Source: a virus. Taken from it: a DNA stretch of 64,000 nt. A program made the translations under genes and the position numbers. Position 1 is the stretch's first letter; each line of letters opens with the position of its first letter. The DNA lies in IMG/VR virus record IMGVR_UViG_3300037010_001386, positions 1 to 64,000 of that record, one strand, 5' to 3'. The notes under the pieces are model-generated. The model ran no database searches. It saw only the letters and a program-made list of their open reading frames with translations, and was not told where the DNA came from. This document shows positions 2,983 through 48,894 of this stretch, piece after piece.

Positions 2983-5190
2983 TTAAAAAGTCAATCTTTT
3001 AACATAAGGAGGATCTTCTGAATGTGCTTCACTATGTTCTTTTTCTCTATTTTCACCTATTCTTTCGTTATCGCTTTCTGTTATTGCTTCCAAATCTAAT
3101 TGTAAATCTTGATTTTCTGTTTGTTGTGTTTCTGGAATTTTTTTAACTCCTGTTATACTAGGAACGCTTAATGTTTTACCACCAGATTGTCTTAATTCGC
3201 TAAAAGCAAACCATAAACTCATTAATCCATCGCCAGTATGTCCATCTGGAAATTTTCTCATTTCATTTATTAACTGAGATGAAATTTGTATTGTTCTTGG
3301 ATCTGATAAATCATAAGGAATGACTAATTTACCATTTTCTGCTATGATAGCCAAACTATTTACACCCAATGTAGAATCATTTTTTTCACCACCAGTAACA
3401 TAAGACCTTGTAGGTATTCCAGCATCTTGTAAATCAATAGCCATCGCTTTTTGATATGCGTTAGATTCTACTCTAATTCCAACTGCATGATATATTTTAT
3501 CCCATTCTATTGCTAAATCTCTAACATATTTAGGAGTAAATTGTGGAAGTTTTCCTCGTTCCATATTTAATAAAACATAATCTCCCGGATTTATTAAAGG
3601 AACAATAGAATTTCTAACACGACCCATTGCACTCAATGCATTATCATCTCCTTTTTCAGATGCCGCCAAATCCAATCCTAAACATATGAGTTCAAAATCT
3701 ATTCCCTTTGGCATTTCTGTGCTTAATCTTAAAGAAGCTCCTTTCTTTTTTGCATTATCTAACCAATTTTCTTTGAATAACTGATTTGGTCTGTTTGCTG
3801 GATTACACATTCTCATTCTTTCAAATGAATATGAATCTGCCATTCTTTCTAAATAAAGGTCTCCGTAATTAAACATTTGTGGAAATAACAATTCTACCCC
3901 ATCATCCATTTCTTTTTTGTGTTGTTGATAAAATTCTTCTGAGTCTTTTATTCTTTTTTCCTGTGATAATTCACTTTGTCCTAACGATTCATCTGTTCTT
4001 ATTTTAGCCCATTCTTGCCATAATTCTTGATTATTTGCTTCGTGTAATATTGCAGGTAATACTTTTTTATAATCAAATTGTGGGTCTTTAAGAAATGACA
4101 TCATTAAATCATCTTCGTGCCAAATATTACCTAATGCAATTAAACGACCATCAGAACTTTGTCCTTTTATTGCAACTGGCATAACAGTAGTTCGAACCCA
4201 AGATTTAGTTTTTTCTCTTGATTCTTCTGTCTGCGTATTATCTTGTGTGCATAAATCATCAAGAATTATAATATCTGCTCTTTTACCTACAATAGCACCA
4301 CCAAGACCTATTGCACGAATTGTTGGATCTTTTAATTGTGTAGAAGATCTATCTATTGTCAATGCTTCAGAATTCCACTTTTCTTCTTTTTTCATAATTT
4401 TTCTCATTTTAGGAATAACGCCTTTTCCCCTTGGATCAATCCACTTTGACCAATTTTGATATTCTTTATTATTTTCTATGTTATCCATTATCTGTGTTAC
4501 AAACAATGAAGCCATTTCGCTGGTGCTTGATACGAGAAGAATTCTTATATTATGATTTAATGCCATTTGCCATAATGGAAATCCTACAGATAAATGAGTA
4601 GAATTATGAGAAACTATACCATTTGCAAAAAAGTTTTCATTATCTTCTACTTGAATATCTATCATTTCCTCTTTTTCTTTCGTTTCTATTGAAACTATTT
4701 TATCCCATAAAAGTTCATCTGATTGTAATATTCTCAAATAATCATTATATGTAATATCTTTTGCTTGTTTGTATCCATCAGAAGTTAATAATCTATGGTC
4801 AGGACTTACTTTTATAAAATTGCCTGTTTTTGTTTTAAACGCAATAACATCTTTCAATCCAACATTATCTTTCCATAAAACATTCTTTTTTTCAATTTCC
4901 CCTTCTTTATTTACAGAATATACAACATCGCCAACCATAATATCAGATAGTTTTTTAATTCCCTTATCTGTTAAAATATCGCTATCAATAGAAAGACATT
5001 TTCCATTACCACGACCTAATGCGATTGCTAATTTATAATATAATTTATTAGAAATAATATCATCTATTTCATTTAGAAAATCTGGATTATCATATCCCAT
5101 AACATCCTCCATAAATACTCTAAAGTATTTTTCTATAGATTTATATCTTAAATTATATTGTTCAGGTTGTAGAATCGTTAGTTCCGTCAT
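2983..5190 (-). CDS. terL: Terminase large subunit interrupted by a mini-intein
   Basis: 735 residues. The packaging ATPase is split at its Walker A motif: GRGNGK (59-64) is followed by an intein (65-196) and then STHLSVGFPLW. Without the intein the protein is 603 residues, a normal TerL size. Further hallmarks are ILLVSSTSEMASLF, Walker B ADIIILDDLC, and the C-terminal RNase H-like nuclease (ICLGLDLAASEKGDDNAL, later ESNAYQKAM and DGLMSLWFAF). It translocates DNA into proheads and cuts it. The start overlaps the probable TerS gene by 29 nt. The gene lies in the leftward early arm, far from the portal. Confidence 0.93.
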   Translation of the reverse strand: MTELTILQPEQYNLRYKSIEKYFRVFMEDVMGYDNPDFLNEIDDIISNKLYYKLAIALGRGNGKCLSIDSDILTDKGIKKLSDIMVGDVVYSVNKEGEIEKKNVLWKDNVGLKDVIAFKTKTGNFIKVSPDHRLLTSDGYKQAKDITYNDYLRILQSDELLWDKIVSIETKEKEEMIDIQVEDNENFFANGIVSHNSTHLSVGFPLWQMALNHNIRILLVSSTSEMASLFVTQIMDNIENNKEYQNWSKWIDPRGKGVIPKMRKIMKKEEKWNSEALTIDRSSTQLKDPTIRAIGLGGAIVGKRADIIILDDLCTQDNTQTEESREKTKSWVRTTVMPVAIKGQSSDGRLIALGNIWHEDDLMMSFLKDPQFDYKKVLPAILHEANNQELWQEWAKIRTDESLGQSELSQEKRIKDSEEFYQQHKKEMDDGVELLFPQMFNYGDLYLERMADSYSFERMRMCNPANRPNQLFKENWLDNAKKKGASLRLSTEMPKGIDFELICLGLDLAASEKGDDNALSAMGRVRNSIVPLINPGDYVLLNMERGKLPQFTPKYVRDLAIEWDKIYHAVGIRVESNAYQKAMAIDLQDAGIPTRSYVTGGEKNDSTLGVNSLAIIAENGKLVIPYDLSDPRTIQISSQLINEMRKFPDGHTGDGLMSLWFAFSELRQSGGKTLSVPSITGVKKIPETQQTENQDLQLDLEAITESDNERIGENREKEHSEAHSEDPPYVKRLTF
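4603..4998 (-). other. Mini-intein inside TerL (residues 65-196)
   Basis: About 132 residues: Cys1 (CLSIDSDILTDKG), block B-like GNFIKVSPDHRLLT with the conserved His, and a C-terminal ENFFANGIVSHN with penultimate His and terminal Asn, followed by +1 Ser. There is no homing endonuclease domain. Removal rejoins GRGNGK to STH, restoring the P-loop, so terminase ATPase activity should depend on splicing. Confidence 0.93.
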
Positions 5191-32297: not shown

Positions 32298-34784
32298 ATG
32301 AATTCTCAAAACGGGGATAATTTAAAAAAATTGGTTACTGGCAATGTTTTAATGGACGAATACATACAGAAGTCAGATTCTGAACGCATAAGTCAAGAGC
32401 GTTCTTTTGCGTTTACTAAAAGGAAAAGATTGTCTTATTCAATAGAAAAGGGTCTTTCAAAGCCAGGACTTGTATCATACGATGTTTTACGCAGAATAGT
32501 TAGGTCTGTTCACGCAGCAAGAATATGCGTTAATGTTTTAAAAGATAAGGTTGCAAAAACAAAGTGGGTCATACAACCTATTAATCCAAGAGAAAAAGTT
32601 GACCCAGAAAAAATAAAACAAGTTGAAAATTTGTTTAAGTATCCAAATCCATCAGAATCGTTTAGAACATTATTGGATAAGATAATGGAAGATTTGCTTT
32701 CTCTTGATACTGTTTTTATTGAAAAAGTTAGATATAATGATGGGACACTTGCTGGATTATTTTATTGCGATGCGGCAACAATAAGACCAGTTTTTAATGA
32801 AAAAGGAGAACAAGATGTTATCGTTCCATTACCAGATAAAAATGGAGGAGTAAAGAAATTACCAGTTTCTTATGTTCAAATAGAAAATGCAAGTCCTTAT
32901 GGAGGTGCTACATCTGGTAACGTTGTAGCAGCATGGCCTAAAAAAGATATGGTTCATTTCAATATGCATCCACAGGGCAATATGGAAAATTTTGGATATG
33001 GACTTTCACCGATTGAAAGCGTGTTGGGCGTTATAACAAATATTTTAAATGCAGATAATTACAATAGCACTTATTTTCAAGAAGGTGCATTCCCACCAGC
33101 TATTATACAATTAAAAGCAAATATTGACCCTCGTGAACTTGAAAATCTCAGAGAATATTTATATTCAGAACTTAATGGACAATTCCATAGACCAGCAGTA
33201 TTTGCAGGAGATATGGATATGGATGTAAAAGATTTGAAAACATTGACGCAGAGAGATATGCAGTTTATGGATTATATGACATTTATGTTAAAATTGCTTG
33301 CTGCGGCATTTGGTTTATCAGGACAGGATGTTGGATTATCTGGTGATATAAATAGCACAGATTCTAATGTTCAAAAAGATTTATCACAAGCAAAAGGATA
33401 TGGTGCATTACTTACTTTATTACAAGAGGAATTTAATCAACAAATTATTTGGAAAGATTTTGGATATACAGATATAGAATTTGCGTGGATAAATCCAGAC
33501 ACAGAAGATCCAAAAGAAAATGTAGCTGTTTATGATACTTCGCTTAGAAATGGTTCGCTTACATTAAATGAAGTTAGGAAAAGTTTAGGAAAAGAACCTT
33601 ATGGGGCTTGGGCTGATATTCCTATGGTTTTAGGTGCGATGGGATATACACCTATTATGCCAAAATCAGATGCTGCGAAACCAGAAGGAGAAGACGAGGA
33701 AGAAACTCATTCAGATTCTGATTTTGTGGGAATGGAAAAACCAATGAAAGAACAAGCGATAGAAGATGATAGCAATTTAGAAAATACAACAACAGAAGAA
33801 ATACATAAAAGTATTTTGACTCCAGATGGTTATGAAACTTATGTTGATGATCGTGGATATGGACAGCCATTTATATTTTATAAGATTTTAACAGGAGAAG
33901 GATATGTTATTAAACCTCCTGTTGCAGTAAATTTAGATAGTCAAATAATGGAAGAAAAATTGACACATAAATTGGCAGATGAAGGATTGAGAGTAAATCC
34001 TGTAACAAGAATGACATTGGCAGATATTGAAACAAAATTATTAACATCAGATACTTTAAGAAAGCAGTTTAACGATTATGTAGAAATGGCACCAGCTTAC
34101 GATAGTAAAAAATGGTCAGCTACTTTTGGCAATAGCAGAAAGTATCCTTATTATTCTGTTAGTAAATTTATAGATGGAAGAAGTTTGAAAGATCCTTTAC
34201 TTATAAAGGATATGCAAAGAGTTCCACAGGATTACAAACAAGCAATTAAAGAATTAGCTGATTTATGGTTAGCTGAAAAGAAATATGTTTTAGGCGATAG
34301 ACGAGCAGACCAAGTATTATTTACTCCAGATAAACATATTATGGCATTTGATTTTCAATTCGAGGGCAATAAAAACAGATGGAAGAGTACAAAGGATTCA
34401 TACGCAAACGCACTGAAACCAATACCAGAACTTTATAATTTATTTATAGAATTGACAAATCAGAACAAAGAGTCTGTTGTTAAAAAGATAAAGAATATAT
34501 TTAAAAAAGATGCATTAGAAAGTCCTACTAATGAGTATTTTGCTTTCGGAACGCTTGTGAATGGCGATGTAAAGTTTAAGGAAAATGTAAAAAAAGTTTT
34601 TGACAAAAAATCAGAGGATATTTTAATCGATAATGGTTTTACAGAATTGAGTTTTATGTATGATTTTAATACTGCTCAAAAGATTTTATCTGATTATGTA
34701 ACAAAAAATCCAAAAGCATATGGTGGTATATTCATAAAAGAAGATGAGAGAGGGCTGATGTATTGTATATACACTAAACAATAA
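32298..34784 (+). CDS. Portal protein fused to a kinase-like domain
   Basis: 828 residues. Residues 1-455 read as an HK97-type portal: YDVLRRIVRSVHAARICVNVLKDKVA, LLSLDTVFIEKV, WPKKDMVHFNMHPQG, GYGLSPIESVLGVI, then AAAFGLSGQDVG and LRNGSLTLNEVRKSLG. After an acidic linker (456-500) comes a domain of about 230 residues with phosphotransferase features: GEGYVIKPP (candidate Lys539), hinge-like VSKFIDGRSL (621-630), catalytic-loop-like LGDRRADQVLF (665-675) and AFDFQFEG (683-690). A small C-terminal domain (745-828) ends the protein. The portal forms the DNA entry vertex; the kinase-like part is an unusual addition. Confidence 0.85.
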   Translation: MNSQNGDNLKKLVTGNVLMDEYIQKSDSERISQERSFAFTKRKRLSYSIEKGLSKPGLVSYDVLRRIVRSVHAARICVNVLKDKVAKTKWVIQPINPREKVDPEKIKQVENLFKYPNPSESFRTLLDKIMEDLLSLDTVFIEKVRYNDGTLAGLFYCDAATIRPVFNEKGEQDVIVPLPDKNGGVKKLPVSYVQIENASPYGGATSGNVVAAWPKKDMVHFNMHPQGNMENFGYGLSPIESVLGVITNILNADNYNSTYFQEGAFPPAIIQLKANIDPRELENLREYLYSELNGQFHRPAVFAGDMDMDVKDLKTLTQRDMQFMDYMTFMLKLLAAAFGLSGQDVGLSGDINSTDSNVQKDLSQAKGYGALLTLLQEEFNQQIIWKDFGYTDIEFAWINPDTEDPKENVAVYDTSLRNGSLTLNEVRKSLGKEPYGAWADIPMVLGAMGYTPIMPKSDAAKPEGEDEEETHSDSDFVGMEKPMKEQAIEDDSNLENTTTEEIHKSILTPDGYETYVDDRGYGQPFIFYKILTGEGYVIKPPVAVNLDSQIMEEKLTHKLADEGLRVNPVTRMTLADIETKLLTSDTLRKQFNDYVEMAPAYDSKKWSATFGNSRKYPYYSVSKFIDGRSLKDPLLIKDMQRVPQDYKQAIKELADLWLAEKKYVLGDRRADQVLFTPDKHIMAFDFQFEGNKNRWKSTKDSYANALKPIPELYNLFIELTNQNKESVVKKIKNIFKKDALESPTNEYFAFGTLVNGDVKFKENVKKVFDKKSEDILIDNGFTELSFMYDFNTAQKILSDYVTKNPKAYGGIFIKEDERGLMYCIYTKQ

Positions 34785-35107: not shown

Positions 35108-37537
35108 ATGAAGATTAATCCTAATTATTGGATATTACAAGGTAATCAGTTAAAACCATCTAATCCTAATTGGTCTGTTTGGGGTGAGGGTTCTGTTTTG
35201 TGGGGCTCTATAACTGGCACACTTTCTAATCAGACTGACCTACAATCAGCTCTCAATGGGCTTGTTCCTTACTCAGGAGCAAATAAGAACTTATCAATGG
35301 GAAATTATAATGTTTCTGCTCTGGGATTAACTTCTACTAATCTTACCGTTGATACAAGCACTCTTTATGTAGATAGCGTCAATCATAGATTGGGGATTGG
35401 GACGACAAGTCCCGGTACGACGCTGCATGTCGTTGGAACTTTTCGCCTCGCAAGTAATGGTTCTAATTTTGTAAATATAACCAATTCTAATGTAGGAAGT
35501 GGTTCTATCTCAATACCAAATCTTGCTGGTGTTGATGTATTTGATGTATTAGGCACAGCTCAAACATTTACTGCCACAAAAACATTTTCAAATAGTACAT
35601 ATTCCGCACTTTTTACTGGTGGCAATGTCGGGATTGGAACAACAGCACCAAGAGCAAATTTTGAAGTAGATGGATCAGTTTGGTTGAAAACACATTTAGC
35701 AGATGATGCGGAAACTCTTATTATTGAACCAAACACAAGTGCAAATGCTGTTCAATTAAGAACCTATGTGGCAGCTGGAAACATAATCATAGGTAACAAC
35801 TCTAATAATGTTTTATTAGCTACGGGTTCTGGCAATGTGGGCATCGGAATGACATCGCCAACTTCTCAGCTTACTCAAAAATCTACTACTGCTTTACAAA
35901 GCGCTCCATTAGGTAGTCAATTATTATCAACATCTAACTGGACGACAACAGGTTGGACTGGTGATTTCGTTAACGGATTTACTCATACAACAGGAAATAC
36001 GACAGCACTGACCAACACATTAGCGGCAACTTCTGGCAATTTATATCAAATCTCATTTACGGTTACAAATAGAACTGCTGGTTCATTTACAATTAGTTTC
36101 GGAAGCGTAACATCAGGTAGTTATACAGCAACAAATGCGTGGGGAGTAAAAGCAACAGGAACAGGAACGCTATCTATTACACCAACTAGTGATTTCAATG
36201 GGACAATAGTAATAGGTATTCAACAAATTACAGGAATATATTCGCCTATTTATGCTATTCAAGATAACACTGGTGCTAATAATATTGAAATTAGAAGCAG
36301 TTTAAATTCGCTTAATAATCTATTTATTGGTAAAAACACTGGAGGTCATAATACGACTGGTTCCAGTAATACATTTATAGGAGCTAACTCAGGGGCATAC
36401 AACACCACAGGAAACAACAACACAGCTAATGGATATGCTTCTTTCAACTCCAATACCACAGGAGGATATAACACAGCAAATGGATATGGATCTCTCAACA
36501 ACAACACAACAGGTAACTACAATACAGCTAATGGATTTTATTCCCTCTACTATAACACAACAGGAAACTACAATACAGCAAATGGTGTAAGCACACTCCA
36601 AGCCAACACTACGGGGGTATATAATACAGCCGATGGTATGAACGCACTTTCCTCAAACACTACGGGAAGCAGTAATACAGCTAATGGGGCAAGTGCATTA
36701 TCATCCAACAACACAGGGTCTAATAATGTAGCCAATGGAGTAAGCGCTCTCTATTCCAACACCACAGGCACTAGCAATACAGCTAATGGATATTATTCTC
36801 TAAATTCCAATACTACAGGTAACTATAATACCGCATTAGGTTATTATTCTGGTCGTTTTATTGCTGATGGAGCAACAGGCAACGCTACATCAACTAATTC
36901 TATATATTTAGGAGCAAATACAAAAGCATTAGCCAGTGGAGATACAAATGAAATAGTAATAGGTTATAACGCAACAGGGTTAGGTTCAAATACGGCTGTT
37001 TTAGGGAATAGTTCAATTGTTACCACTGCTTTATATGGAAATGTCGGCGTTGGAACGACAACGCCACATGACAAATTAGATGTAAACGGAGTAATAAGTT
37101 CAGGATACACTGCTGGTAATGGTGAAATTAGAATGTATCAGAATAATAATCAAGATGGTATTTATGTTGCGTTAAAAACCGATACTACGAATAAAAAAAG
37201 TGGATTATTTAGAAGTAATACCAATTTTTTCAATTATTATGACACAAATACTGGTGATACTGTATTAGATGCTACTTTTGCTAGTAGTTCTGACATCTTT
37301 AAGATACAAGGTGTTGAAAAAATGAGAATAGCAAATAACGGCAATGTCGGTATTGGAACTACTACACCAAATTACCAATGTCATATCAATGGCACATTAG
37401 GATTTACACCTGGAAGCTCCGTGACACCAGCTAATAATGGTGATATAGTTATAGAAGCAACGAGCAACACATCAGTTACTATAAAATTAAAAGGTTCTGA
37501 TGGTGTTGTAAGAAGTGTTGCACTTACACTATCATAA
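35108..37537 (+). CDS. Fibre/adhesin-like protein with YadA-head-like repeats
   Basis: 809 residues. Several VGIGTT(A/S/T)P trimeric-fibre turns, a jelly-roll-like middle (NWTTTGWTGDFVNGFTHTTG...), then about nine 17-residue repeats of the type NTTGNYNTANGYGSLNN (415-575), the pattern of trimeric adhesin heads, and a further VGIGTTTP stretch at the C-terminus. Likely a trimeric tail or head fibre binding the host surface. It lacks an S74 chaperone at its end. Unusually placed between portal and capsid genes. Confidence 0.75.
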   Translation: MKINPNYWILQGNQLKPSNPNWSVWGEGSVLWGSITGTLSNQTDLQSALNGLVPYSGANKNLSMGNYNVSALGLTSTNLTVDTSTLYVDSVNHRLGIGTTSPGTTLHVVGTFRLASNGSNFVNITNSNVGSGSISIPNLAGVDVFDVLGTAQTFTATKTFSNSTYSALFTGGNVGIGTTAPRANFEVDGSVWLKTHLADDAETLIIEPNTSANAVQLRTYVAAGNIIIGNNSNNVLLATGSGNVGIGMTSPTSQLTQKSTTALQSAPLGSQLLSTSNWTTTGWTGDFVNGFTHTTGNTTALTNTLAATSGNLYQISFTVTNRTAGSFTISFGSVTSGSYTATNAWGVKATGTGTLSITPTSDFNGTIVIGIQQITGIYSPIYAIQDNTGANNIEIRSSLNSLNNLFIGKNTGGHNTTGSSNTFIGANSGAYNTTGNNNTANGYASFNSNTTGGYNTANGYGSLNNNTTGNYNTANGFYSLYYNTTGNYNTANGVSTLQANTTGVYNTADGMNALSSNTTGSSNTANGASALSSNNTGSNNVANGVSALYSNTTGTSNTANGYYSLNSNTTGNYNTALGYYSGRFIADGATGNATSTNSIYLGANTKALASGDTNEIVIGYNATGLGSNTAVLGNSSIVTTALYGNVGVGTTTPHDKLDVNGVISSGYTAGNGEIRMYQNNNQDGIYVALKTDTTNKKSGLFRSNTNFFNYYDTNTGDTVLDATFASSSDIFKIQGVEKMRIANNGNVGIGTTTPNYQCHINGTLGFTPGSSVTPANNGDIVIEATSNTSVTIKLKGSDGVVRSVALTLS
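36354..36835 (+). repeat. 51-bp tandem repeats inside the fibre gene
   Basis: About nine in-frame units of 51 bp centred on AACACNACAGG...AATACAGC(T/A)AATGG encode the adhesin-head repeats. Synonymous variation between units suggests an old array still able to recombine. Confidence 0.8.
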
Positions 37538-38361: not shown

Positions 38362-38880
38362 ATGTTTGAAATAATTTGGAAATCGTTACAGGTAAATAAA
38401 GACACGTTAGATGAAGTTATTGAAGAGATTAATCGTGAGATTAGTCGTATTAGTGCAAATCGTATTCCATATTTAACTGGTCGTGCATTAAAAAAGGAAC
38501 TCGTTCGTGTTCAAGAATTAAGAAATCAACGAGATATTATTAAAAAGAAATTTGGAACAGCTACTCCGAAAAATTCTGCAGATAATGAAATTGATGAAAC
38601 TGATAAAGATATGGGTGTAGAAAATGCTGGAAATATACCAGTATCTTTGTTAGCTCGTCAAGACCTTTCAGAAACTGAAAAATCTGAAGATTATGTAACT
38701 GGTGATTATATACATTTATATAATAAACGAGCAAAAATTAAATGGAGGGATGGACATGGAAACTATCAAGTAGAGTTTTTAGATGGAAAGGATAAGGGAA
38801 AAACAATGATAGTGCCAGAAAACGAGATAGACAAAATGATTTCAAAAAATATAGATTTAATAATAAAAAAATATGAATAA
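38362..38880 (+). CDS. Hypothetical protein sharing an LLARQDL motif with the capsid protein
   Basis: 172 residues. Helical N-terminal half (LDEVIEEINREISRISANRI), linker, then IPVSLLARQDLSETEK, which matches IPSGLLARQDLEST near the N-terminus of the major capsid protein. The C-terminal part is an SH3-like barrel (AKIKWRDGHGNYQVEFLDGKDKGKTMIVPE). It may mimic or contact the capsid protein during assembly. Overlaps the giant gene by 8 nt. Confidence 0.6.
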   Translation: MFEIIWKSLQVNKDTLDEVIEEINREISRISANRIPYLTGRALKKELVRVQELRNQRDIIKKKFGTATPKNSADNEIDETDKDMGVENAGNIPVSLLARQDLSETEKSEDYVTGDYIHLYNKRAKIKWRDGHGNYQVEFLDGKDKGKTMIVPENEIDKMISKNIDLIIKKYE

Positions 38881-41800
38881 ATTATTCAAAATGTTGTTAA
38901 GAAAAACAAGTGACGGCACAGAAGAAGAGGATGCGTTAAAAAGTGCTGATTTAACTTGTTGGGTTCAAAATGCTAATGATTTATATGAACAAGGTAAATC
39001 ATATAATTATATTATATCAGATTTACAAACGAAAGGAGTATCGCCAAGTGATATTGCAATAGTAATGGATTTATTCCAGCAAATGGTTGGTGACGAAGGA
39101 ATTGTAAAATCTAATGTAGAAAAGATTATAAGACACGAAGGAAATGAATGGGTTTTATATTCTCACGAAGGAAAGGTATTAGGAAGACATCCTACAAAGG
39201 AAAGTGCAGAAGGACAAGAGGCGGCAGTTCAAGCAAATAAATCACAGGTTAAAAAAGGATTAAGTTATGACGAATGGGAAGAAAAAGTTATTGAAGAATT
39301 AGCAAAACTTTTAGATGCACCTATTTCAGATATACAAGGTATTATTATGTTGCAATCTTTCATTTTAGACAGAGAATGGGCAAAAGATACTGACCCTAAA
39401 AAAGTTGCTCAACTTATTGAAAGAGCTTCAATTGTTCATAGGTCACAAAAAGAATTAAGCCGTGACGAATGGGAAGAAAAAGTTATTGAAGAAGTAGCAA
39501 AATTTTTTGGTATATCTATTTCAGATGCACAAGGTATTGTTATGATACAACCTTTCATTTTACAGAAAGAATGGGTAAAAGATACTGATCCTGAAAAAGT
39601 CGCTCAACTTATTGAAAGAGCTGCGACAATTCATAGGTCACAAGATGAAACATCTACAGAAAAAGATATAGTTGATTATCTTGATAAAAGTTTTTCAGAT
39701 GATAGTGTAATAACAGTCGCTGTTGTAAAAGAGAAAATTCGTAAAGCATTTCCAGAGATTAAATCAGATTGGTCAGTTGGAGTATTGGCTAGTTTATGGA
39801 TTGATAGACAGAGATTGAATAAAGCGTTTCCATCGTTATCATCTAATATTACAAAAAATCTTACTGATGTAAGAGTTGCAGAAAAACTTTTGACAGAGGA
39901 AGAATCTATTAAAACCTATTTGCATTTAGATGGCGATGATTTGTCAGGGAATCCGCAATATATTAAGGAAGTAAGTAAACTTAGTCGTTTTGGCGTAGGT
40001 CCAGATGTTATGAGAATATTAGAGGATGCAGGTCATCATTCATTGGTTAAAGTGCTTATGAGTTTAGGTTCTCCAAGCCCTGCTATTCAGAAATCATCAT
40101 TTAACGTTACAAAGAATGCTAATGATGATGAAAGAGTTGCAGAAAGATTAATGGCAGATGAAACAAGAATTAATAATGATTTACATATACAAGGCGGAGA
40201 CCGTTCAAATGATCCACAATATATTGATAGAATAAAGAGAATTAATCGTTCGGGAATTAATCCAAATGTTATGGCAATATTGGAGGACGAGAATTATCAT
40301 TCATTGGTTTCAGTGCTTATGAGTTTAGGAGCACCAAGACCTGCAAATAAAGTTCGCAGAGGAGGAATAGATGATGATGAACTATGGGGAAAATCTCAAG
40401 ATGTTACCAATAAATCAATTGAAAAAAGTAGAATTCCAGAACGAACCATTATGATTGCTTCGCTAGATGAAATGGATTATATACAAATGGGAGTTAAACA
40501 AGAAACTCCAACTAGTTGGATTGATTCCAATGGGAATGTCTGGCCAAAAAGCGAATACAAGTTTGTTGAAGAATTGAAACCTGTAAAAAAGGATGATACT
40601 ACCAATAAATCAATTCCCAATCGAACAGAACAAGCAAAAGTATTAATAAATGTTGACCACGATCTTCGGGTTAAACTTGGATTTTTTGATGGAAAAAGCA
40701 TGAATGATCCTAGGAACTGGAATGAATACAAACAAGAATTAAGTGAAAGATTTGTTGGAAATGTTTCTCAAGAAACTTTATCAGATTTAAAGGATAGTGG
40801 TTATAATTCGTTAGTATTGGCATTGAAAGAATTAGGTAGAATAAGTAAATCTCAAGATGTTACCAATAAAGGAATTTATAATAAAACAGAACAAGCACAA
40901 GTATTAATAAATCTTGACTACTATCTTCGGATTAAATTTGGATTTTTCGAGGGAAAAAGCATTAAGGATCCCAAAATCTGGAATGAATACAAACGAAAAT
41001 TAGGTGAAATGTTTGTTGGAAATGTTTCTCAAGAAACTTTATCAGACTTAAAAGATAATGGTCGTGATTGGTTAATATTGGCGTTGAAAGAATTGGGTAG
41101 AATAAGTAAATCTCAAGATAATGTTACCAATAATACAGAAAAGGATTTAAAGACATCGCTTGGCGTTCAAAGACATAACAATAGAATGGATAATATTTGG
41201 AATGATGCAAAAGAACTTGAGCGTAAGCGTGTTGCGGCAGGTGAAGAACCAAATCCAAGTCTTACCAGCCCAGAAGAAGCTGCAAAGTACGGATGGGTGC
41301 CAGTTAAAATAGATGGATATAATAGGTATCAGAGAAAAGCACAGAAATCACAGGATAATGTTACTAATAAATCATTTGAAAAAGGATCTAGATATACCAT
41401 TGTTAGAAGAACTTTTGAAGCAGAAAAATATCCAAAAGGTAGTGCAGAGAGAGCAAAATTAAATGAAAATCCTTTAACTAGTGAATATGCACATTCATAT
41501 AAATATGCAGTAGTTGATGGAAGTGGAGAATCTATGGAGGAGTTTTATAGTAAAACAGATGCTCAGAATTGGATTGATGCTCATACAAAAAATACTACTA
41601 ATAAATCATTTGAAAATCCAACAGCAGAAGGAGAACGATTAATGATTATTGATAATGAAATTTGGGATAAATTTGGATTTAGAAGCGGAAGCGATGTAGA
41701 TAAGAACTGGAATAAATATAAACAGGCAGTAAATGAAAAAGTTCATGGAAAAGTTTCTAAAGAAACTTGGGAAGATTTGGAAGATAATAATTATCACTCA

Positions 41801-44224
41801 ATGATAAAAGCATTGAATGAATTGGGCAAGTTAGAAAAATCACAAATTCAAAAAGGAAGTCTTTCGTATGGCGTTGAAGGAGAAATACAATTAGAGGCTG
41901 AAAATAATTTTGGACCATATTCAACAAGACGAGAGGTTGAAAATAATGTTAAATCTGCAATAAGGGATATGTTTAATTGGGTCAAAGATAAAGATGACTT
42001 AAAAAAACTTAAAGAAGTTTCAAATAATCCATCTAAAATAAAAGATATTGTTGATTCAATTTGCGAAGATTCGGATATTACAAAAACAGAGAAATCTCAA
42101 GTAGAAAAAGCAGATGATTCAAATTCTCTTAGAGCAGTAAATGCACGAAAACTTTATACAGCACAACAGATTCATTCAAAATATGCAGGGAAGTTTGTAG
42201 ATTTCTATCCTTATTATCATGATTATTGGAATGATAAAACTAATCGGTATGAAACTGTTTATGAGGTAAGAGGAGTAAGTAGCAAGGAGAGAGAGAATTA
42301 TCGACCAGCAGAAGACATTGGTAAGTCTATAGAAAAAGCTCGAACAATTGGTGCTCATTGGAAAGGAGAGATAAAAAGGATTATGGCACAGGGCAAGAAG
42401 CAGGGTATTGAAAATATTAATCAGATGAAAGATTTTGTTTATGACAAACTTCCACAGGAAGCATTTGACACATGGGAAAGTGCATACTCGGAAATCGGTA
42501 ATTTAGTTCATGAATATTGGGATAGTATTCCAGATTCTCGACCAAGTTATATGAAAGCACAGGGCGATCATTTTTATTTTGGCGAGCGGGTTGATTTCAT
42601 ATTTGGTGATAATAACAGAGCGACAGGAAAAATTATTAGTCTTTGGAGGTCACGAGATAGACAAGCACTTGCAATTAAAAGCGATGAAACTGGTAAGATA
42701 TATGAGTATTGGTCTGATGATCCTAAAGTGATTAAGCTCAAGAAATCTCAATTAAAAAAAGGAACTTTTGATTCTGATATAAAAGAAGAAGAGGAAGGTT
42801 CAGAACATTATGAAGACCTTGCAAATAAATATCCAGAATTTAGTTCAGAGTTTAATGAAATGGCTCAACAGGAATTGGGACATAAAAAGAACCTTGAAGA
42901 AATGAAGAATAAATTAGATGCGACAGAAACTACAAAGTCAAGACAAGATATTAACGATTATATAGATGATTATTATCGTGGCGGAGATCATCATTCTGAA
43001 GCAGAAAAAATAACAAATATTCTTTTTGATAATCCGAGTCTAGAAAAGGATTTAGAAAAAATAGGGAATGAATTTGATGTCAGCCATTATGTTGAGAGTT
43101 ATTTAGATAGAACCTATAAAAAGAAATCTTCTTCTGAAATTAGAAAAACAACATGGGACGTGACTGTTGAATATGCGGATGCAAAAGATGGATATAAAAG
43201 AAAGAAACAGACATTTAGATTAAATATAGCAGGAGATCCTGTATATGAATGGAGAGACGCATTGAGCATGAAAGTTGGACCATTAGAATTTGCACGTTTT
43301 ACAGATACACATGTCGTTAAATATGATATGCCTTTTTTTGGAACGAGAAAATCAATTTCGAATGATGAGCAAGATGATACTACAGAAAAAGCAACAATGT
43401 ATACTGGATACAAATGTAAATTATGTGGAGAAGAGTTTTTTCCATATACAGACCAACAGTTATCATCGCATCTTAAGAATAAACATCCACAACAATATAA
43501 AGAACTTCAAGATGCTGAAGATAATTACGAAGATTTAATGTTATGGGATTTCTTTACAAAGTTTAAGAGACTTCTGAAATCACAACCATTAAAAGTAACA
43601 GATGCAGAGATCCGAGATTTTTTAGGACAGAATAGTGATATTCATGATGTTGAAAAACTAATTAATATGGTTATGCAGAAATTTAATTTTCATCGTAGTG
43701 GAGCCATTGATCAGGTTTGGGACTTTATAGAAGATGTTATTCCTCCAGAGAGACGACATCTTTATAAATCTCAATTAGTATCAAAAGCAATAGATGGTTT
43801 TATTAACAAGTATGAAAAAAGTGCTGTTACAGACGAAATAGCTCGACAATTACGAACTCTTGGATGGAAAGGACCAATTGTATCTACTGGTAGTAATTCA
43901 GTTAAAGTTAATAATGGATTAAAAGGTGTTACTATAACTTATAACGAAGGAAGTGATTTATATGATTTAGTTCCTTATGACGCAACTAACGGATTGAAAT
44001 ATGGTAGTCGTATTAGCGATATATATGCAGATGATTTGGTATCAACTATTGACAGATTAATATCACAGACGAGTAAATCACAAGTATCAAAAACAATAGA
44101 TAATATTTTTGATAAATACGAAACAATACAAAAGCCAGGAGCATCGCATTCTATAACCAATAAGGGAATATTAGAATCAAGGATTGATAGAAATGGTAAT
44201 ATAAAGCATAAATGGGAAGATTAA
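38873..44224 (+). CDS. 1783-residue modular KSQ-linked protein (candidate internal virion polyprotein)
   Basis: Built from short domains joined by linkers with KSQ or RSQ, often KSQDVTNKS (at about 123, 190, 256, 507, 659, 746, 825, 989, 1074, 1291, 1569, 1632, 1735). Seen: an HEGNEWVLYSHEGKVLGRHP unit (88-107); a 60-residue tandem pair (133-192, 199-257); five copies of a 70-residue helical module (about 333-400, 421-487, 586-656, 672-745, 918-988), also present once in the neighbouring protease gene; a ferritin-like EEEEGSEHYEDLANKYPEF...ELGHKKN segment (1304-1345); and a C2H2 finger (C1515, C1518, H1533, H1538). Placed between portal and protease, it may be packaged and cleaved. Function unknown. 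Confidence 0.7.
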   Translation: MNKLFKMLLRKTSDGTEEEDALKSADLTCWVQNANDLYEQGKSYNYIISDLQTKGVSPSDIAIVMDLFQQMVGDEGIVKSNVEKIIRHEGNEWVLYSHEGKVLGRHPTKESAEGQEAAVQANKSQVKKGLSYDEWEEKVIEELAKLLDAPISDIQGIIMLQSFILDREWAKDTDPKKVAQLIERASIVHRSQKELSRDEWEEKVIEEVAKFFGISISDAQGIVMIQPFILQKEWVKDTDPEKVAQLIERAATIHRSQDETSTEKDIVDYLDKSFSDDSVITVAVVKEKIRKAFPEIKSDWSVGVLASLWIDRQRLNKAFPSLSSNITKNLTDVRVAEKLLTEEESIKTYLHLDGDDLSGNPQYIKEVSKLSRFGVGPDVMRILEDAGHHSLVKVLMSLGSPSPAIQKSSFNVTKNANDDERVAERLMADETRINNDLHIQGGDRSNDPQYIDRIKRINRSGINPNVMAILEDENYHSLVSVLMSLGAPRPANKVRRGGIDDDELWGKSQDVTNKSIEKSRIPERTIMIASLDEMDYIQMGVKQETPTSWIDSNGNVWPKSEYKFVEELKPVKKDDTTNKSIPNRTEQAKVLINVDHDLRVKLGFFDGKSMNDPRNWNEYKQELSERFVGNVSQETLSDLKDSGYNSLVLALKELGRISKSQDVTNKGIYNKTEQAQVLINLDYYLRIKFGFFEGKSIKDPKIWNEYKRKLGEMFVGNVSQETLSDLKDNGRDWLILALKELGRISKSQDNVTNNTEKDLKTSLGVQRHNNRMDNIWNDAKELERKRVAAGEEPNPSLTSPEEAAKYGWVPVKIDGYNRYQRKAQKSQDNVTNKSFEKGSRYTIVRRTFEAEKYPKGSAERAKLNENPLTSEYAHSYKYAVVDGSGESMEEFYSKTDAQNWIDAHTKNTTNKSFENPTAEGERLMIIDNEIWDKFGFRSGSDVDKNWNKYKQAVNEKVHGKVSKETWEDLEDNNYHSMIKALNELGKLEKSQIQKGSLSYGVEGEIQLEAENNFGPYSTRREVENNVKSAIRDMFNWVKDKDDLKKLKEVSNNPSKIKDIVDSICEDSDITKTEKSQVEKADDSNSLRAVNARKLYTAQQIHSKYAGKFVDFYPYYHDYWNDKTNRYETVYEVRGVSSKERENYRPAEDIGKSIEKARTIGAHWKGEIKRIMAQGKKQGIENINQMKDFVYDKLPQEAFDTWESAYSEIGNLVHEYWDSIPDSRPSYMKAQGDHFYFGERVDFIFGDNNRATGKIISLWRSRDRQALAIKSDETGKIYEYWSDDPKVIKLKKSQLKKGTFDSDIKEEEEGSEHYEDLANKYPEFSSEFNEMAQQELGHKKNLEEMKNKLDATETTKSRQDINDYIDDYYRGGDHHSEAEKITNILFDNPSLEKDLEKIGNEFDVSHYVESYLDRTYKKKSSSEIRKTTWDVTVEYADAKDGYKRKKQTFRLNIAGDPVYEWRDALSMKVGPLEFARFTDTHVVKYDMPFFGTRKSISNDEQDDTTEKATMYTGYKCKLCGEEFFPYTDQQLSSHLKNKHPQQYKELQDAEDNYEDLMLWDFFTKFKRLLKSQPLKVTDAEIRDFLGQNSDIHDVEKLINMVMQKFNFHRSGAIDQVWDFIEDVIPPERRHLYKSQLVSKAIDGFINKYEKSAVTDEIARQLRTLGWKGPIVSTGSNSVKVNNGLKGVTITYNEGSDLYDLVPYDATNGLKYGSRISDIYADDLVSTIDRLISQTSKSQVSKTIDNIFDKYETIQKPGASHSITNKGILESRIDRNGNIKHKWED

Positions 44225-44258: not shown

Positions 44259-46340
44259 ATGAACAAGATAATCGCAACGTTTAATGGAAATACACCATTT
44301 AAGTTTTTTATAGAAAAAGCTGAATCATTTAATCCAGAAGATTATAATGGCGAATGGGTTATTTATGGATGTGCTTCTTCTACAAACACAGACCACGATC
44401 AAGAAAAAATGGCTCCTCAAGCATTGGAGCAAATGGCAGAGATAATCAACAAGCAACCAATACCGCTTAGATATGAACATCAAAAAGATGAAAATTCTAT
44501 TATAGGAAAAGTATTTGAAGCAAGTGTTGATGCTCGTAATAAATTGATGATTAAAGCACAACTTGATAAAACAAATCCTATTGCAAAAGTATTATGGGAC
44601 GGAATTATATCAGGTTCAAAAATGGGATTTTCAGTAGGAGGAAGAGTAGTTCAAGCGGCGAGAGAATTAGTGGAGGGAATAGGTAAAAAGATTAGAACAT
44701 TTTATAAAGTAGATGTCGATGAAGTTTCAGTAACTCCTCGACCATCTAATTTTGATGCGTGGATGGTAAATCATTCTTTCGCTAAATCAATATCGGAGGC
44801 AAGCACATATAGAGATAATTTTAGTTTCTATGGTGCATTTTTAAGAGACAATCCCGGATTAGATTATTTGGCAGTGATTGAAAAATCAATACCAGATAAA
44901 GATTGGATAAAGGTCGATAGTAACATACAAAATAAAAAAATGAAAATAATTAAAACAAGCAGAACTTCAACGGAAACAGAAGAAACAACACCATTTGTTG
45001 AAACAACAGAAACAGATTCATATGGTAAAACATCTCCAGATCTAATGGCAGAAGCAAGAAAATTAATGAAAATTAATGATGAAATTTATAATAAACTTGG
45101 AATTAAAAGTGAAAAAGATTTAGATGATAACTGGGATAAATATCAACAAGCAGTAAGTAGTAAAGTTAATGGAAAAATTTCTAAAGAAGTAATGAAATAT
45201 CTATTAGATAATCGTTATTATGCAATAGTAAGTGCATTATTTCATTTGAATAAGATAGAAAAATCTCAGTCTCAGGAAGATGAAACATCAGAAACGACAG
45301 AAGAAAAAGAAAATTCTACCATTGATGAATTAATAACTTCTGATAAAAGTATTCCAGAAACATCTGATACTGAAACGACAACAAAAGAAACATCAGATAC
45401 TGAAACAACAACAAAGGAAGAAGATGAAGAAACTGTAACCTCAAAATCGTATGTTGATGAAGTAGTTGGAAATCTTAAAAAGGAACTTGATTCCAAGTTC
45501 AGCGATGTACTTGGCGTTTTAAAAGCCATTAAGAAATCTATTGATACTACCGACACAACAGACGAAACAACTGAAAAAGATGAATCAGAAACAACATCTG
45601 AAACAGAAAAAGATATAGATGATGAATCTGAAACAACTGAAAAAGATGAAACTGAAACAACAAATGAAACAACAAAAGGTTTTACAACTTCTACAACAGA
45701 AAAAGATGTAGACGATGAAACAACTTCTACAACAGAAAAAGATGTAGACGATGAAACAACATCTACAACATCTGAAGCTAAAAAAGCATTTAGCAGAAAA
45801 TCATCTTCAACAGAATCTACAACAACAAAAGCAGAAGAAACAATTTCTGAAACTTTTGAAACAACCGATTCTGACACAACAGATTCTGATGAAACAACAA
45901 CATCTGATACAACTGATTCAACTACAAATGATTATGGTGCTGAATATGTAATTCCAGATGTAAATGAAGCAATGAAATCTGCAAGAGCGATGGGAATAAA
46001 TCCATTAGATGCTTTTGTATATGCTTTAACAAAGCATATCAAACAATTCGAGAATAAAATAATGGAAAAGAATAATACAAGAATTGTTGGATTAGCAAAT
46101 GAAGTTGCTACTATAATTAGAAACGATAAGACCATTCAAAAATCTATCAAAGGATGGATGAATGAACCAATCGCTCCTAAATCAGTAGCGTTTGGAGTTC
46201 CTTACATTAAAGAAAGAAACGGAGATTTATTTAGATTAACACCTATTAATAAATCAGAAGACGAAGAGTTAAGGAAATCATTTGTTGGTAAGAGTTTCAA
46301 AGAACTTTATCAAGCAAAATATTCAACTACATTGGAATAA
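44259..46340 (+). CDS. Prohead protease fused to scaffold-like region
   Basis: 693 residues. Residues 30-180 match the HK97/S78 prohead protease: NGEWVIYGCASSTNTDHDQE, PLRYEHQKDE (His74) and SKMGFSVGGR (Ser125). Then comes one copy of the helical module shared with the giant protein (about 264-330, ending KSQSQ), a long Thr/Glu/Asp-rich linker with repeats ETTSTTEKDVDD, and a C-terminal helical region (PDVNEAMKSARAMGINPLDAF) as in scaffolds. It should cleave scaffold and capsid precursors. An internal start at 44940 could give the scaffold alone. Confidence 0.88.
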   Translation: MNKIIATFNGNTPFKFFIEKAESFNPEDYNGEWVIYGCASSTNTDHDQEKMAPQALEQMAEIINKQPIPLRYEHQKDENSIIGKVFEASVDARNKLMIKAQLDKTNPIAKVLWDGIISGSKMGFSVGGRVVQAARELVEGIGKKIRTFYKVDVDEVSVTPRPSNFDAWMVNHSFAKSISEASTYRDNFSFYGAFLRDNPGLDYLAVIEKSIPDKDWIKVDSNIQNKKMKIIKTSRTSTETEETTPFVETTETDSYGKTSPDLMAEARKLMKINDEIYNKLGIKSEKDLDDNWDKYQQAVSSKVNGKISKEVMKYLLDNRYYAIVSALFHLNKIEKSQSQEDETSETTEEKENSTIDELITSDKSIPETSDTETTTKETSDTETTTKEEDEETVTSKSYVDEVVGNLKKELDSKFSDVLGVLKAIKKSIDTTDTTDETTEKDESETTSETEKDIDDESETTEKDETETTNETTKGFTTSTTEKDVDDETTSTTEKDVDDETTSTTSEAKKAFSRKSSSTESTTTKAEETISETFETTDSDTTDSDETTTSDTTDSTTNDYGAEYVIPDVNEAMKSARAMGINPLDAFVYALTKHIKQFENKIMEKNNTRIVGLANEVATIIRNDKTIQKSIKGWMNEPIAPKSVAFGVPYIKERNGDLFRLTPINKSEDEELRKSFVGKSFKELYQAKYSTTLE
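44940..46340 (+). CDS. Predicted separate scaffold protein from an internal start
   Basis: In frame with the protease gene (Met228), preceded by AAAGGTCG (44909-44916), 23 nt, and AAAAAAATG: exactly the leader arrangement seen before stand-alone genes here. The product (466 residues) would hold the shared module, the acidic repeat linker and the C-terminal helical region without the protease, like lambda Nu3 within C. Confidence 0.5.
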   Translation: MKIIKTSRTSTETEETTPFVETTETDSYGKTSPDLMAEARKLMKINDEIYNKLGIKSEKDLDDNWDKYQQAVSSKVNGKISKEVMKYLLDNRYYAIVSALFHLNKIEKSQSQEDETSETTEEKENSTIDELITSDKSIPETSDTETTTKETSDTETTTKEEDEETVTSKSYVDEVVGNLKKELDSKFSDVLGVLKAIKKSIDTTDTTDETTEKDESETTSETEKDIDDESETTEKDETETTNETTKGFTTSTTEKDVDDETTSTTEKDVDDETTSTTSEAKKAFSRKSSSTESTTTKAEETISETFETTDSDTTDSDETTTSDTTDSTTNDYGAEYVIPDVNEAMKSARAMGINPLDAFVYALTKHIKQFENKIMEKNNTRIVGLANEVATIIRNDKTIQKSIKGWMNEPIAPKSVAFGVPYIKERNGDLFRLTPINKSEDEELRKSFVGKSFKELYQAKYSTTLE

Positions 46341-46553: not shown

Positions 46554-47597
46554 ATGAAAGAAATTAGTGCTTTAGAAAAAGCATTAGGAAGGATAGAAAA
46601 GGATGTTAATGTTTCGTTCGCTGGACCAATTCCATCAGGATTATTGGCACGTCAAGATTTGGAGTCGACATTAGTCGTGCTCTCAGATCGTCTTACGCCA
46701 TTTCGTGATAGAGTTAGTCGTGAACAAGGACAGGGCAATGCCCATCTTTGGAATCAAAGAACAAGACTTGACACCATTTCTAAAGGACCTGCAGGACTGG
46801 TAAATTTGTTTTATGCTGATGGAAACATTCCAAATCAGAATGACCCAGCATATGTTCAAAAATCAGCTGCATACAAATACCTTGGTCAGACTGCGGTAAT
46901 TACTGGCCCGATGATTGCATCAGGTAGGTCTTACATTGATATGGAGGCGGAAGTTGCCGAGGCAGCTTTACGTGCCGTTATACAATGTGAGGAATGGGCT
47001 GATTTCAAAGCATCATCGTCTGTCAATTCATTGGCATATGATGGTTTTGATGCTCAGTTAACAACTGCGGTCATTGATAATACAGGAAATACTTTAACAT
47101 CTACAGGACTTACAATCCCTGCATTCGACTCAGTCATAAAGGCTACTCGTAATCAGGGCAATACTAAAGTAGATGCTATCTATCTCTCGTATGGTCTTCA
47201 AACATTAGTAAATCAGATAATCTCAGGACAAGCTCGTTACTTCGTTCAACCTGACGGTGGACGAGGAACGACTTTGGCAGCTGGTGACAATGTCGTCAGC
47301 TATATGAGTCCTTTGGGAAGTGTTCCTATTATAGGAGATTTCTTCTGCAATCCGACTTTGCCATATCCTTATGATGCGGCTGGTTCGTCTGATGTTTCAG
47401 GTAGTCCACTTTCTGATGTTTACTTCTTAAGACACGATTCGCTTGGAAATGAGATGGTTGATTTGATGCCAATAGGACGCACAGAACTTGCAAAAATTGC
47501 AGACTCAGTTCGTTTCTATATTAACGAATACACAGTTTTGGCTTTGAAAGCTGAACCTTGGAATGGCATTTTATTGAACGTCGCAGATCCTGCATAA
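46554..47597 (+). CDS. Major capsid protein (HK97 fold)
   Basis: 347 residues. A short N-terminal helical part (LEKALGRIEKDVN, IPSGLLARQDLES), then an HK97-like body with ITGPMIASGRSYIDMEAEVAEAALRAV, an E-loop/P-domain pattern and a C-terminal YINEYTVLALKAEPWNGILLNV. Position after the protease/scaffold gene is diagnostic. Its codons are visibly GC-richer (GTCGTCAGC, GGCCCG) than its neighbours, in keeping with high expression or a different origin. Confidence 0.85.
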   Translation: MKEISALEKALGRIEKDVNVSFAGPIPSGLLARQDLESTLVVLSDRLTPFRDRVSREQGQGNAHLWNQRTRLDTISKGPAGLVNLFYADGNIPNQNDPAYVQKSAAYKYLGQTAVITGPMIASGRSYIDMEAEVAEAALRAVIQCEEWADFKASSSVNSLAYDGFDAQLTTAVIDNTGNTLTSTGLTIPAFDSVIKATRNQGNTKVDAIYLSYGLQTLVNQIISGQARYFVQPDGGRGTTLAAGDNVVSYMSPLGSVPIIGDFFCNPTLPYPYDAAGSSDVSGSPLSDVYFLRHDSLGNEMVDLMPIGRTELAKIADSVRFYINEYTVLALKAEPWNGILLNVADPA

Positions 47598-47694: not shown

Positions 47695-48894
47695 ATGATA
47701 GTAAAAATAATAGATAAAAGAGTAAGTGCTATTTTATGGAAAAATAAATATCTGCCAACAAATGTAGATATAGATTTATCGGTAAGTGATATATTGCATT
47801 TCTCTAGAAGGAATCCAATAGAATTTAATATACCAACAATTGATTATAATCCTGAAACATGGAAGAATAAACAATTTGTTTTAATAGGGGACGCTGATTC
47901 TACCAGTGGTTTTGGTAATTGCACGACTAATTTAATAACGCAATCTATTAAAAATAAATACGATATTAGATGGATTGGAAAACAATACGAAGTTCCACAA
48001 TTAACGAGATATAATTATCAAGATATATCAACTGATATGGGTGTGGTATTCCACGAACAACCAAAACAAGAATGGCTAACTTTACCATTCCAGAAAAAAC
48101 TTGCAATTGTTCCATTTGAAACAACTCGTATTCCAAAATCTTGGGTTTATAAAATAAACTCACTTGATGCAATAATGGTTCCTTGTAGTCAGAATGTGCA
48201 AATGATGAAAGATTCTGGTGTAACTATTCCTATTGAAGAAATAAGATGGGGTGTGAATACAAAAGAATTTCCATTATTAAAAAGAAATAATAAGTATTTT
48301 ACATTTGGACAAATGGGTGCTTTATCATTAAGAAAAGGAACTGATACTTTAATTAGTGCTTTCAAGAAAGCATTTCCTATAGAAGAATATCCAAATGTTA
48401 GATTATTATTAAAAACATCAAACGATGGTTTTTTATTTGAGACAAAAGACGATAGAATAAAAGTGCAAATAGGAAAATTCAATAAAAAAGAATTATTAGA
48501 TAATTTCTTACAGCAAATAGATTGTTTTGTATTTCCTACAAGAGGTGAAGGTGCTGGACTTCCTCCATTAGAAGCAATGGCTACTGGATTGCCAGTTATC
48601 TGCACAGATTGGTCTGGTCCAAAAGATTATCTTCCAATTGATTATACATATTGGCTTAAATATAAAATGGTTCCTGCTACAGATTTTAGCAAGAAAATAT
48701 ATAAAGAACCTTGCGGAGATTGGGCTGAACCAGATGAAGAGCATTTAATAGAACTTATGCGATATTGCTATAATAATCAAGATGAAGCAAAAAAGATGGG
48801 AGAACTTGGCTCTAAATGGGTTCATAAAAATATGACATGGGATAAAAATATACATTTATTCTTTGATGTTCTTAATAAGTATTTTAAAAAATAG
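47695..48894 (+). CDS. GT4-family glycosyltransferase next to the capsid gene
   Basis: 399 residues. The C-terminal half is a typical GT-B nucleotide-sugar domain: FTFGQMGALSLRKGTDTLI, VRLLLKTSND, FVFPTRGEGAGLPPLEAMATGLPVICTDWSGPKDYL (EX7E-like element). It lies between capsid and connector genes, just after the large hairpin, so it may decorate capsid or fibre proteins with sugars. It would act in the host cytoplasm. Confidence 0.85.
   Translation: MIVKIIDKRVSAILWKNKYLPTNVDIDLSVSDILHFSRRNPIEFNIPTIDYNPETWKNKQFVLIGDADSTSGFGNCTTNLITQSIKNKYDIRWIGKQYEVPQLTRYNYQDISTDMGVVFHEQPKQEWLTLPFQKKLAIVPFETTRIPKSWVYKINSLDAIMVPCSQNVQMMKDSGVTIPIEEIRWGVNTKEFPLLKRNNKYFTFGQMGALSLRKGTDTLISAFKKAFPIEEYPNVRLLLKTSNDGFLFETKDDRIKVQIGKFNKKELLDNFLQQIDCFVFPTRGEGAGLPPLEAMATGLPVICTDWSGPKDYLPIDYTYWLKYKMVPATDFSKKIYKEPCGDWAEPDEEHLIELMRYCYNNQDEAKKMGELGSKWVHKNMTWDKNIHLFFDVLNKYFKK

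Follow-up and report, generated by a model that had tools for sequence, protein, structure and literature searches.

The 64,000 nucleotides of viral DNA analysed here (positions 1 to 64,000 of IMG/VR virus record IMGVR_UViG_3300037010_001386, hereafter the window) raise the question of what a 1783-residue modular protein, encoded by a single open reading frame (ORF; 38873..44224, plus strand), is doing among the genes of a phage head. A first-pass annotation had described this giant as lying between the portal and protease genes and as a possible packaged polyprotein. The gene order is as described, but the genes are not adjacent: three others, encoding a 98-residue protein, a fibre-like protein and a 172-residue protein, also separate portal from protease, the last of them directly 5′ of the giant and overlapping it by 8 nucleotides. 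As a single query the giant had no relative in the viral contigs, phage records or PDB searched, and scans with Pfam, PHROG and NCBIfam gave no enzyme domain above cut-off. The best explanation, which we hold tentatively and at slightly less than an even chance, is that the giant is a packaged head-cargo polyprotein, recruited through scaffold and capsid-arm sequences and cut at K|S sites inside the head.

The linkers noted in the first reading, about a dozen (K/R)SQ, number 11 KSQ and 2 RSQ, far above what is seen in 2000 shuffles of the giant (mean 0.56 and maximum 4 for KSQ; mean 0.85 and maximum 5 for [KR]SQ). The KS dipeptide as a whole occurs 32 times, for 14.6 expected. KS is enriched 1.9-2.2-fold in the protease, the cargo proteins and the giant, compared to 0.87-fold in other proteins, and the reverse dipeptide SK is not enriched. 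KS also lies close to module borders: the homology-defined edges of the giant's modules are a median of 4.5 residues from the nearest KS vs. 19.9 for random sites (p 0.0004).

A lysine followed two residues later by I or V is conserved at three further junctions of the head operon. We compared about 60 related IMG/VR contigs, for which the protease, the portal domain and the capsid protein served as search queries; near-identical loci (L006/L009, L016/L017 and L029/L030/L035) inflate some of the counts. The capsid N-terminus has K in 35 of 35 sequences with V or I two residues on, the major capsid protein of the window (46554..47597, plus strand; phrog_752) reading ..IEK16|DVNVSFAGPIPSGLLARQDLE. 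At the junction between the portal and its C-terminal kinase-fold domain, about 23 of 26 sequences read K[SATK][IV] (by eye), with HK|SIL in the portal of the window (32298..34784, plus strand; Pfam Phage_portal, 1.6e-35). Lastly, the junction between protease and scaffold has K in 32 of 33 sequences and KS in 30; the residue after KS is I in 16 of these and V in 14. The recurrence of K-[S/A/T]-[I/V] at places where a prohead protease would cut lends indirect support to such a role. It is K-S that is retained, and not KSQ.

The enzyme itself would be the product of the gene at 44259..46340 (plus strand), in which a predicted prohead protease (residues ~1-170; phrog_1028, E 1e-6) is fused to an acidic, Thr-rich, scaffold-like region, with junctions AKSI/EKSIP, a Thr/Glu-rich tail and the C-terminal motif SFKELYQAKYS. 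H74, S125 (GFSVGG) and E155 are invariant across 23 sequences, and phrog_1028 is a head maturation protease family; the conserved His and Ser and the family match are those of a predicted serine-type prohead protease. In HK97 the capsid protein is cut at K103/S104, with Leu as the next residue (PMC10275583), and it is plausible from the sequences that K|S is a cleavage site of the HK97 type. The place corresponding to the capsid K site reads K-S-Y in Twort and K-G-F in Enterococcus phage 156 (aligned by eye). The capsid of Listeria phage A511 is reportedly cut at Lys23/Ser24, which we take as a lead and not as support.

What do the linkers separate? Following the giant from its N-terminus (all coordinates on the plus strand), a small domain at residues 80-123 (IIRHEGNEWVLYSHEGKVLGRHPTKESAEGQEAAVQANK; 39110..39241) is flanked by K79|SN and K123|SQ and is 55-62% identical to the cargo proteins of L046 and L014, with a match to phrog_3684 at 5.8e-7. 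The tandem pair predicted at about 60 residues is present, at 65 residues each (126-190 and 191-255; 39248..39637), both ending in HRSQ as read from the sequence and the [KR]SQ positions. The five announced copies of a 70-residue helical module were recovered by alignment, although they are in fact of about 75 residues. Copies 1 (residues 326-405; 39848..40087) and 2 (414-495; 40112..40357; without a K-S end) are divergent, at 23-24% identity to copy 5 (alignment A5). Copy 3 (583-659; 40619..40849) lies between K579|SI and K659|SQ, copy 4 (670-746; 40880..41110) ends at K746|SQ, both placed by alignment and [KR]SQ positions, and copy 5 (915-989; 41615..41839; alignment and AlphaFold2) lies between K911|SF and K989|SQ. 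The sixth copy, in the protease/scaffold protein (45036..45278; alignment A5), also stood up to homology search (43% identity, E 1e-20) and ends in EKSQ. An AlphaFold2 model of the module (seven copies, shown for copy 5) is confident, with a predicted local distance difference test (pLDDT) score of 92.6, and all helical, with five helices; KSQ forms a low-confidence tail past the last of them. Structure prediction thus gave a clear fold, but not a fold match, the best hit among PDB folds having an E of 5.3.

Further along, one module (residues 990-1074; 41840..42094) extends exactly from K989|SQ to K1074|SQ and is 54% identical to residues 260-333 of the L040 cargo protein; another (1152-1215; 42326..42517), starting at K1151|SI, is 54% identical to residues 154-216 of the same protein. 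The ferritin-like stretch of the first-pass annotation is borne out: the two-helix module at residues 1292-1355 (42746..42937; alignment A6 and PDB profile match), from K1291|SQ to K1355|SR, has E-x6-Y and E-x2-H (E13, Y20, E41, H44) invariant in 10 cargo copies, and a profile built from these 10 homologues finds ferritin-like diiron proteins among PDB entries (1vjx, E 8e-10). As a two-helix unit this module would have to pair, and its iron binding is putative. The proposed C2H2 finger (residues 1510-1540; 43400..43492; CKLCGEEFFPYTDQQLSSHLKNKH) has the canonical C-x2-C...H-x4-H pattern but fails on score, at 12.2 bits in Pfam, far under the 27-bit cut-off. Near its C-terminus the giant twice has a 12-residue motif, SK-x-ID-xxx-KYE (residues 1637-1649 and 1738-1749; SKAIDGFINKYE and SKTIDNIFDKYE), which also forms the C-terminal end of the 172-residue protein (SKNIDLIIKKYE), a possible link between the two.

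The modules recur in one kind of gene in the related phages. In 45 capsid-containing loci, the slot 5′ of the prohead protease is usually occupied by one variable modular gene, commonly of 145-583 residues, which we refer to as the cargo gene; Pfam, PHROGs and NCBIfam have no family that spans a whole cargo protein. When every protein of the related loci was compared with the giant, significant matches were confined to cargo genes and the protease of the window, with none in 554 others. The giant is therefore best seen as an overgrown member of the cargo family, and indirect, sequence-level support places it in a modular head-operon family that shares elements with capsid and scaffold proteins. 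As part of the packaged-and-cut reading as a whole, for which the chances again fall just short of even, it would belong to a rapidly changing family of modular head-cargo proteins, with genes between those of the portal and the prohead protease, and would be the largest example seen. The search for the module in other phage genomes, called for at the outset, thus led to cargo genes of relatives: in L040 three modules of the giant are present in a different order, and in L033 a copy of the 70-residue module forms the C-terminal end of the protein, at the point where K|SQ would come next.

Two short elements connect cargo proteins to the scaffold and the capsid. One is FxxxW/Y followed by K. 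Cargo proteins have it at about residue 4 and again towards the C-terminus, and the protease-scaffold has it 14-18 residues before its C-terminal end in 24 of 36 sequences by the strict pattern, with more if variants such as FQDYFK are allowed. The other is shared with the capsid N-terminus, of consensus K[S/T/A/D/N]V[DN]xSFAGPxPxSLLARQDLE, a copy of whose AGPxPxSLLARQDLE portion recurs in cargo. We counted this N-arm element in the longest gene directly 5′ of the protease, an unbiased choice that replaces a regular-expression-defined cargo class, which held two chance matches (L022_17188 and L069_12670). It is present in 17 of 25 such genes and in 0 of 554 other proteins; in four more loci it lies in the next gene along or in an ORF of smaller size. 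The capsid reads LLS instead of LLA in only two paired phages, and their cargo element has LS too. In the window, both elements occur in the 172-residue protein (38362..38880, plus strand), which has FEIIWK|S at its N-terminus followed by the capsid N-arm element AGNIPVSLLARQDL, and weak homologues in L020 and L025. The elements also turn up in other combinations, the three giant modules of L040 being found with an N-arm element and FKDFWK within a single protein, an FxxxW-type N-terminus being fused to the protease itself in L042, L043, L063 and L064, and the N-arm element lying inside the protease gene in L039.

These data bear on the suggestion that the 70-residue module is what targets the giant to the prohead. 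In the related loci compared, the module is missing from the relatives' proteases, so that its use as an address label is weakened, and the elements found family-wide sit in the 172-residue neighbour instead. We propose that cargo would be drawn into the growing prohead, co-assembling with scaffold, via the FxxxWK (scaffold C-terminus) and AGPxPxSLLARQDLE (capsid N-arm) elements. The giant would enter with its 172-residue partner, which carries both, or via the module it has in common with the scaffold-protease. After shell assembly, the protease would cut past Lys at K|[S/A/T] sites, at the capsid N-terminus, the portal-kinase joint, the protease-scaffold joint and the giant's own K|S linkers. 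About ten to fifteen small domains would thereby be freed within the head, and some may accompany the DNA into the host; injection is a guess, by analogy with T4, P1 and polyvalent proteins. The scheme in its fullest form, with one 1783-residue precursor and a partner mimicking capsid arm and scaffold tail, cut at a dozen or more K|S sites into at least 10 co-injected proteins, and with the portal kinase freed by the same scaffold-fused protease, strikes us as possible but doubtful.

Several points weigh against a packaged and cut giant. The sequences show the sharing of modules, the abundance and placement of K-S and the three conserved K-x-[IV] junctions; that the giant is packaged, cut and injected, and what each module does, we infer. 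In a motif scan the giant lacked the N-arm element and had no canonical FxxxW motif; its P2′ residue (the second after the presumed cut) is mostly Q, vs. I or V at the best-conserved sites; the context of KS is no more disordered than that of other lysines (p 0.48); and the phage records and viral contigs searched hold no full-length homologue of the giant to show linker conservation. There are also hints in the sequence that the linkers were partly copied along with the modules. The serine codons at all 13 [KR]SQ are TCA or TCT, AGY being used by 36% of the giant's serines, so that some linkers were probably duplicated as DNA and the 13 are not independent events; 18 identical nucleotides are common to two of them (AAATCTCAAGATGTTACC, residues 507 and 659). 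Both facts, and the shuffling of modules between phages seen with L040, would fit a giant that is packaged as an internal core or ejection protein and left uncut, its K-S linkers being flexible joints, or shuffling and duplication seams kept by linker recombination. Polyvalent proteins can be delivered uncut, as with N4 vRNAP (PMC5512222). We nevertheless consider this unlikely, since K-S is enriched also across unrelated modules, proteins and phages with mixed serine codons, and the conserved K-x-[IV] positions of protease-scaffold, portal and capsid are no duplication seams.

Precedents for cleavage after Glu also count against K|S. The T4 prohead protease cuts at L/I-X-E (PMC9026906) and that of SPN3US at A-X-E (PMC10052503). 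The P1 capsid protein (mature N-terminus SVAAEM) was considered as a K|S precedent and rejected: the preceding residue is Glu (..AMLE|SVAAEM; PMC9024508), which makes P1 a counter-example. The protease of the window might likewise cut after Glu in a QDLE|G/S element, processing capsid and small cargo and leaving the giant uncut at KSQ, and QDLE is indeed followed by a small residue in the capsid and in most cargo. This seems quite improbable to us: with ~15 conserved residues the element resembles a binding surface more than it does a short protease site, it is missing at the portal and protease junctions, and the distantly related Twort and Enterococcus phage 156 capsids read REILDD/REFLDD, without that Glu, and keep K-S/K-G before the arm (by eye). 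Finally, the giant could be no head protein at all, but one expressed late for host takeover or conflict, whose place in the head operon is incidental. Late operons can hold accessory genes, ferritin-like and finger-like modules are of non-structural types, and the missing N-arm and FxxxW motifs would be accounted for. The restriction of its modules to head-cargo genes and the protease, and the presence of three of them in one L040 protein with both an N-arm element and FKDFWK, make this quite improbable too.

Phages that pack and inject proteins are known to encode them singly, in a small number of genes. In HK97 we know of no cargo polyprotein. With HK97 gp4 the likeness lies in the prohead protease and in a Lys|Ser site just before the capsid arm, the difference being that HK97 cuts its own capsid protein (PMC10275583). 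T4 IPI-III and Alt, processed by gp21, are non-shell proteins co-assembled in the prohead via a short terminal targeting sequence, cut by the protease and ejected with the DNA (PMC9026906); they are separate small genes that lose a ~10-residue propeptide at L/I-X-E, whereas the scheme proposed here has a single precursor of many modules, cargo with an internal N-arm copy, and predicted K|S cuts. Like them, the giant lies beside the prohead protease in the head operon, a feature that we chose and that is no formal requirement in T4. SPN3US/phiKZ ejection proteins are abundant internal head proteins, some cut at several places by the prohead protease gp245 (PMC10052503), but the A-X-E cuts mostly remove N-terminal propeptides and there is no module chain. 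Semi-tryptic searches were usable in the gp245 studies because this enzyme cuts after Glu (PMC10052503); cuts that follow Lys resemble those of trypsin itself, and a search for semi-tryptic ends at KSQ, as the annotation suggested, would not reveal K|S processing with that enzyme.

Polyvalent proteins, including P1 DdrB, are large and multidomain, many are encoded in head operons, and they are predicted to be injected and have reshuffled domains (PMC5512222). The giant similarly has several disparate domains in one head-operon polypeptide. It differs in that polyvalent proteins have recognisable enzyme domains, often a self-processing metallopeptidase, whereas the giant has small repeated modules of helical or metal-binding type and prohead-protease-like linkers, and none of the catalogued catalytic domains (often zincin-like metallopeptidases). 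Encapsulated ferritin is a two-helix protein (E32/Y39/E62/H65) held as cargo in an HK97-fold shell by a short peptide, with a spacing like the E-x6-Y and E-x2-H of the giant's module; it belongs to a bacterial compartment and uses a C-terminal localisation peptide (PMC5012862). The module has the helical pair with E and ExxH ligands expected of a ferritin-like di-iron protein in sequence, metal binding being a prediction. Phage proteins that are packed, processed and injected have precedents; the literature searched describes no chain of interchangeable modules that is cut by a protease and mimics the capsid arm. If true, this would be a general cargo-loading scheme, in which any domain placed between K|S linkers in the slot is packed and freed, with the giant as an unusually extreme case of phages packing proteins alongside their DNA. 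It would also provide, for uncultured phages of a wide group, two short candidate targeting elements, FxxxWK of the scaffold tail and the peptide of the capsid arm, together with K|[S/A/T]-[I/V] as the predicted specificity of the protease.

The neighbouring genes have features of their own. The C-terminal ~230 residues of the portal protein (33819-34568) have a predicted kinase fold (pLDDT 84.9); almost all of the 50 best Foldseek matches are kinases of proteins or lipids, at modest template modelling (TM) scores of ~0.4, and K32, E45, D160 and D178 of the domain, positioned like kinase catalytic residues, are invariant in 12 relatives. The domain has no sequence relative in Pfam or PDB. Together with its K-[S/A/T]-[I/V] linker it is kept in about 26 related phages; it is missing in some relatives, and a MuF-like domain is added in others. 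The virus record, of ~67 kb, has a capsid protein whose family is a distant relative of the Herelleviridae (SPO1/Twort) capsids, a match made via the relative L041, and a capsid profile gave no match in 84,980 prokaryote genomes. Directly 3′ of the capsid gene is a glycosyltransferase of ~400 residues (47695-48894; Pfam Glycos_transf_1 2.5e-17, also GT4-conflict), and several relatives (L005-L010) have a similar-sized gene there.

The fibre- or spike-like protein (35108-37537), with many NTTGNYNTANG-type repeats, lies within the head operon between the portal and cargo genes; at the same place L009 and L010 encode a 1109-residue protein with a region matching it. Between the cargo and protease genes of two relatives there is an Arg/Lys-rich ORF of 177 residues with NGFKKG repeats (L006:1636-2166 and L009:7711-8241), possibly a homing-endonuclease-like insert. 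In the corresponding operon region, the relative L024 encodes long SPSLSPS repeat proteins (1-810 and 3492-4085).

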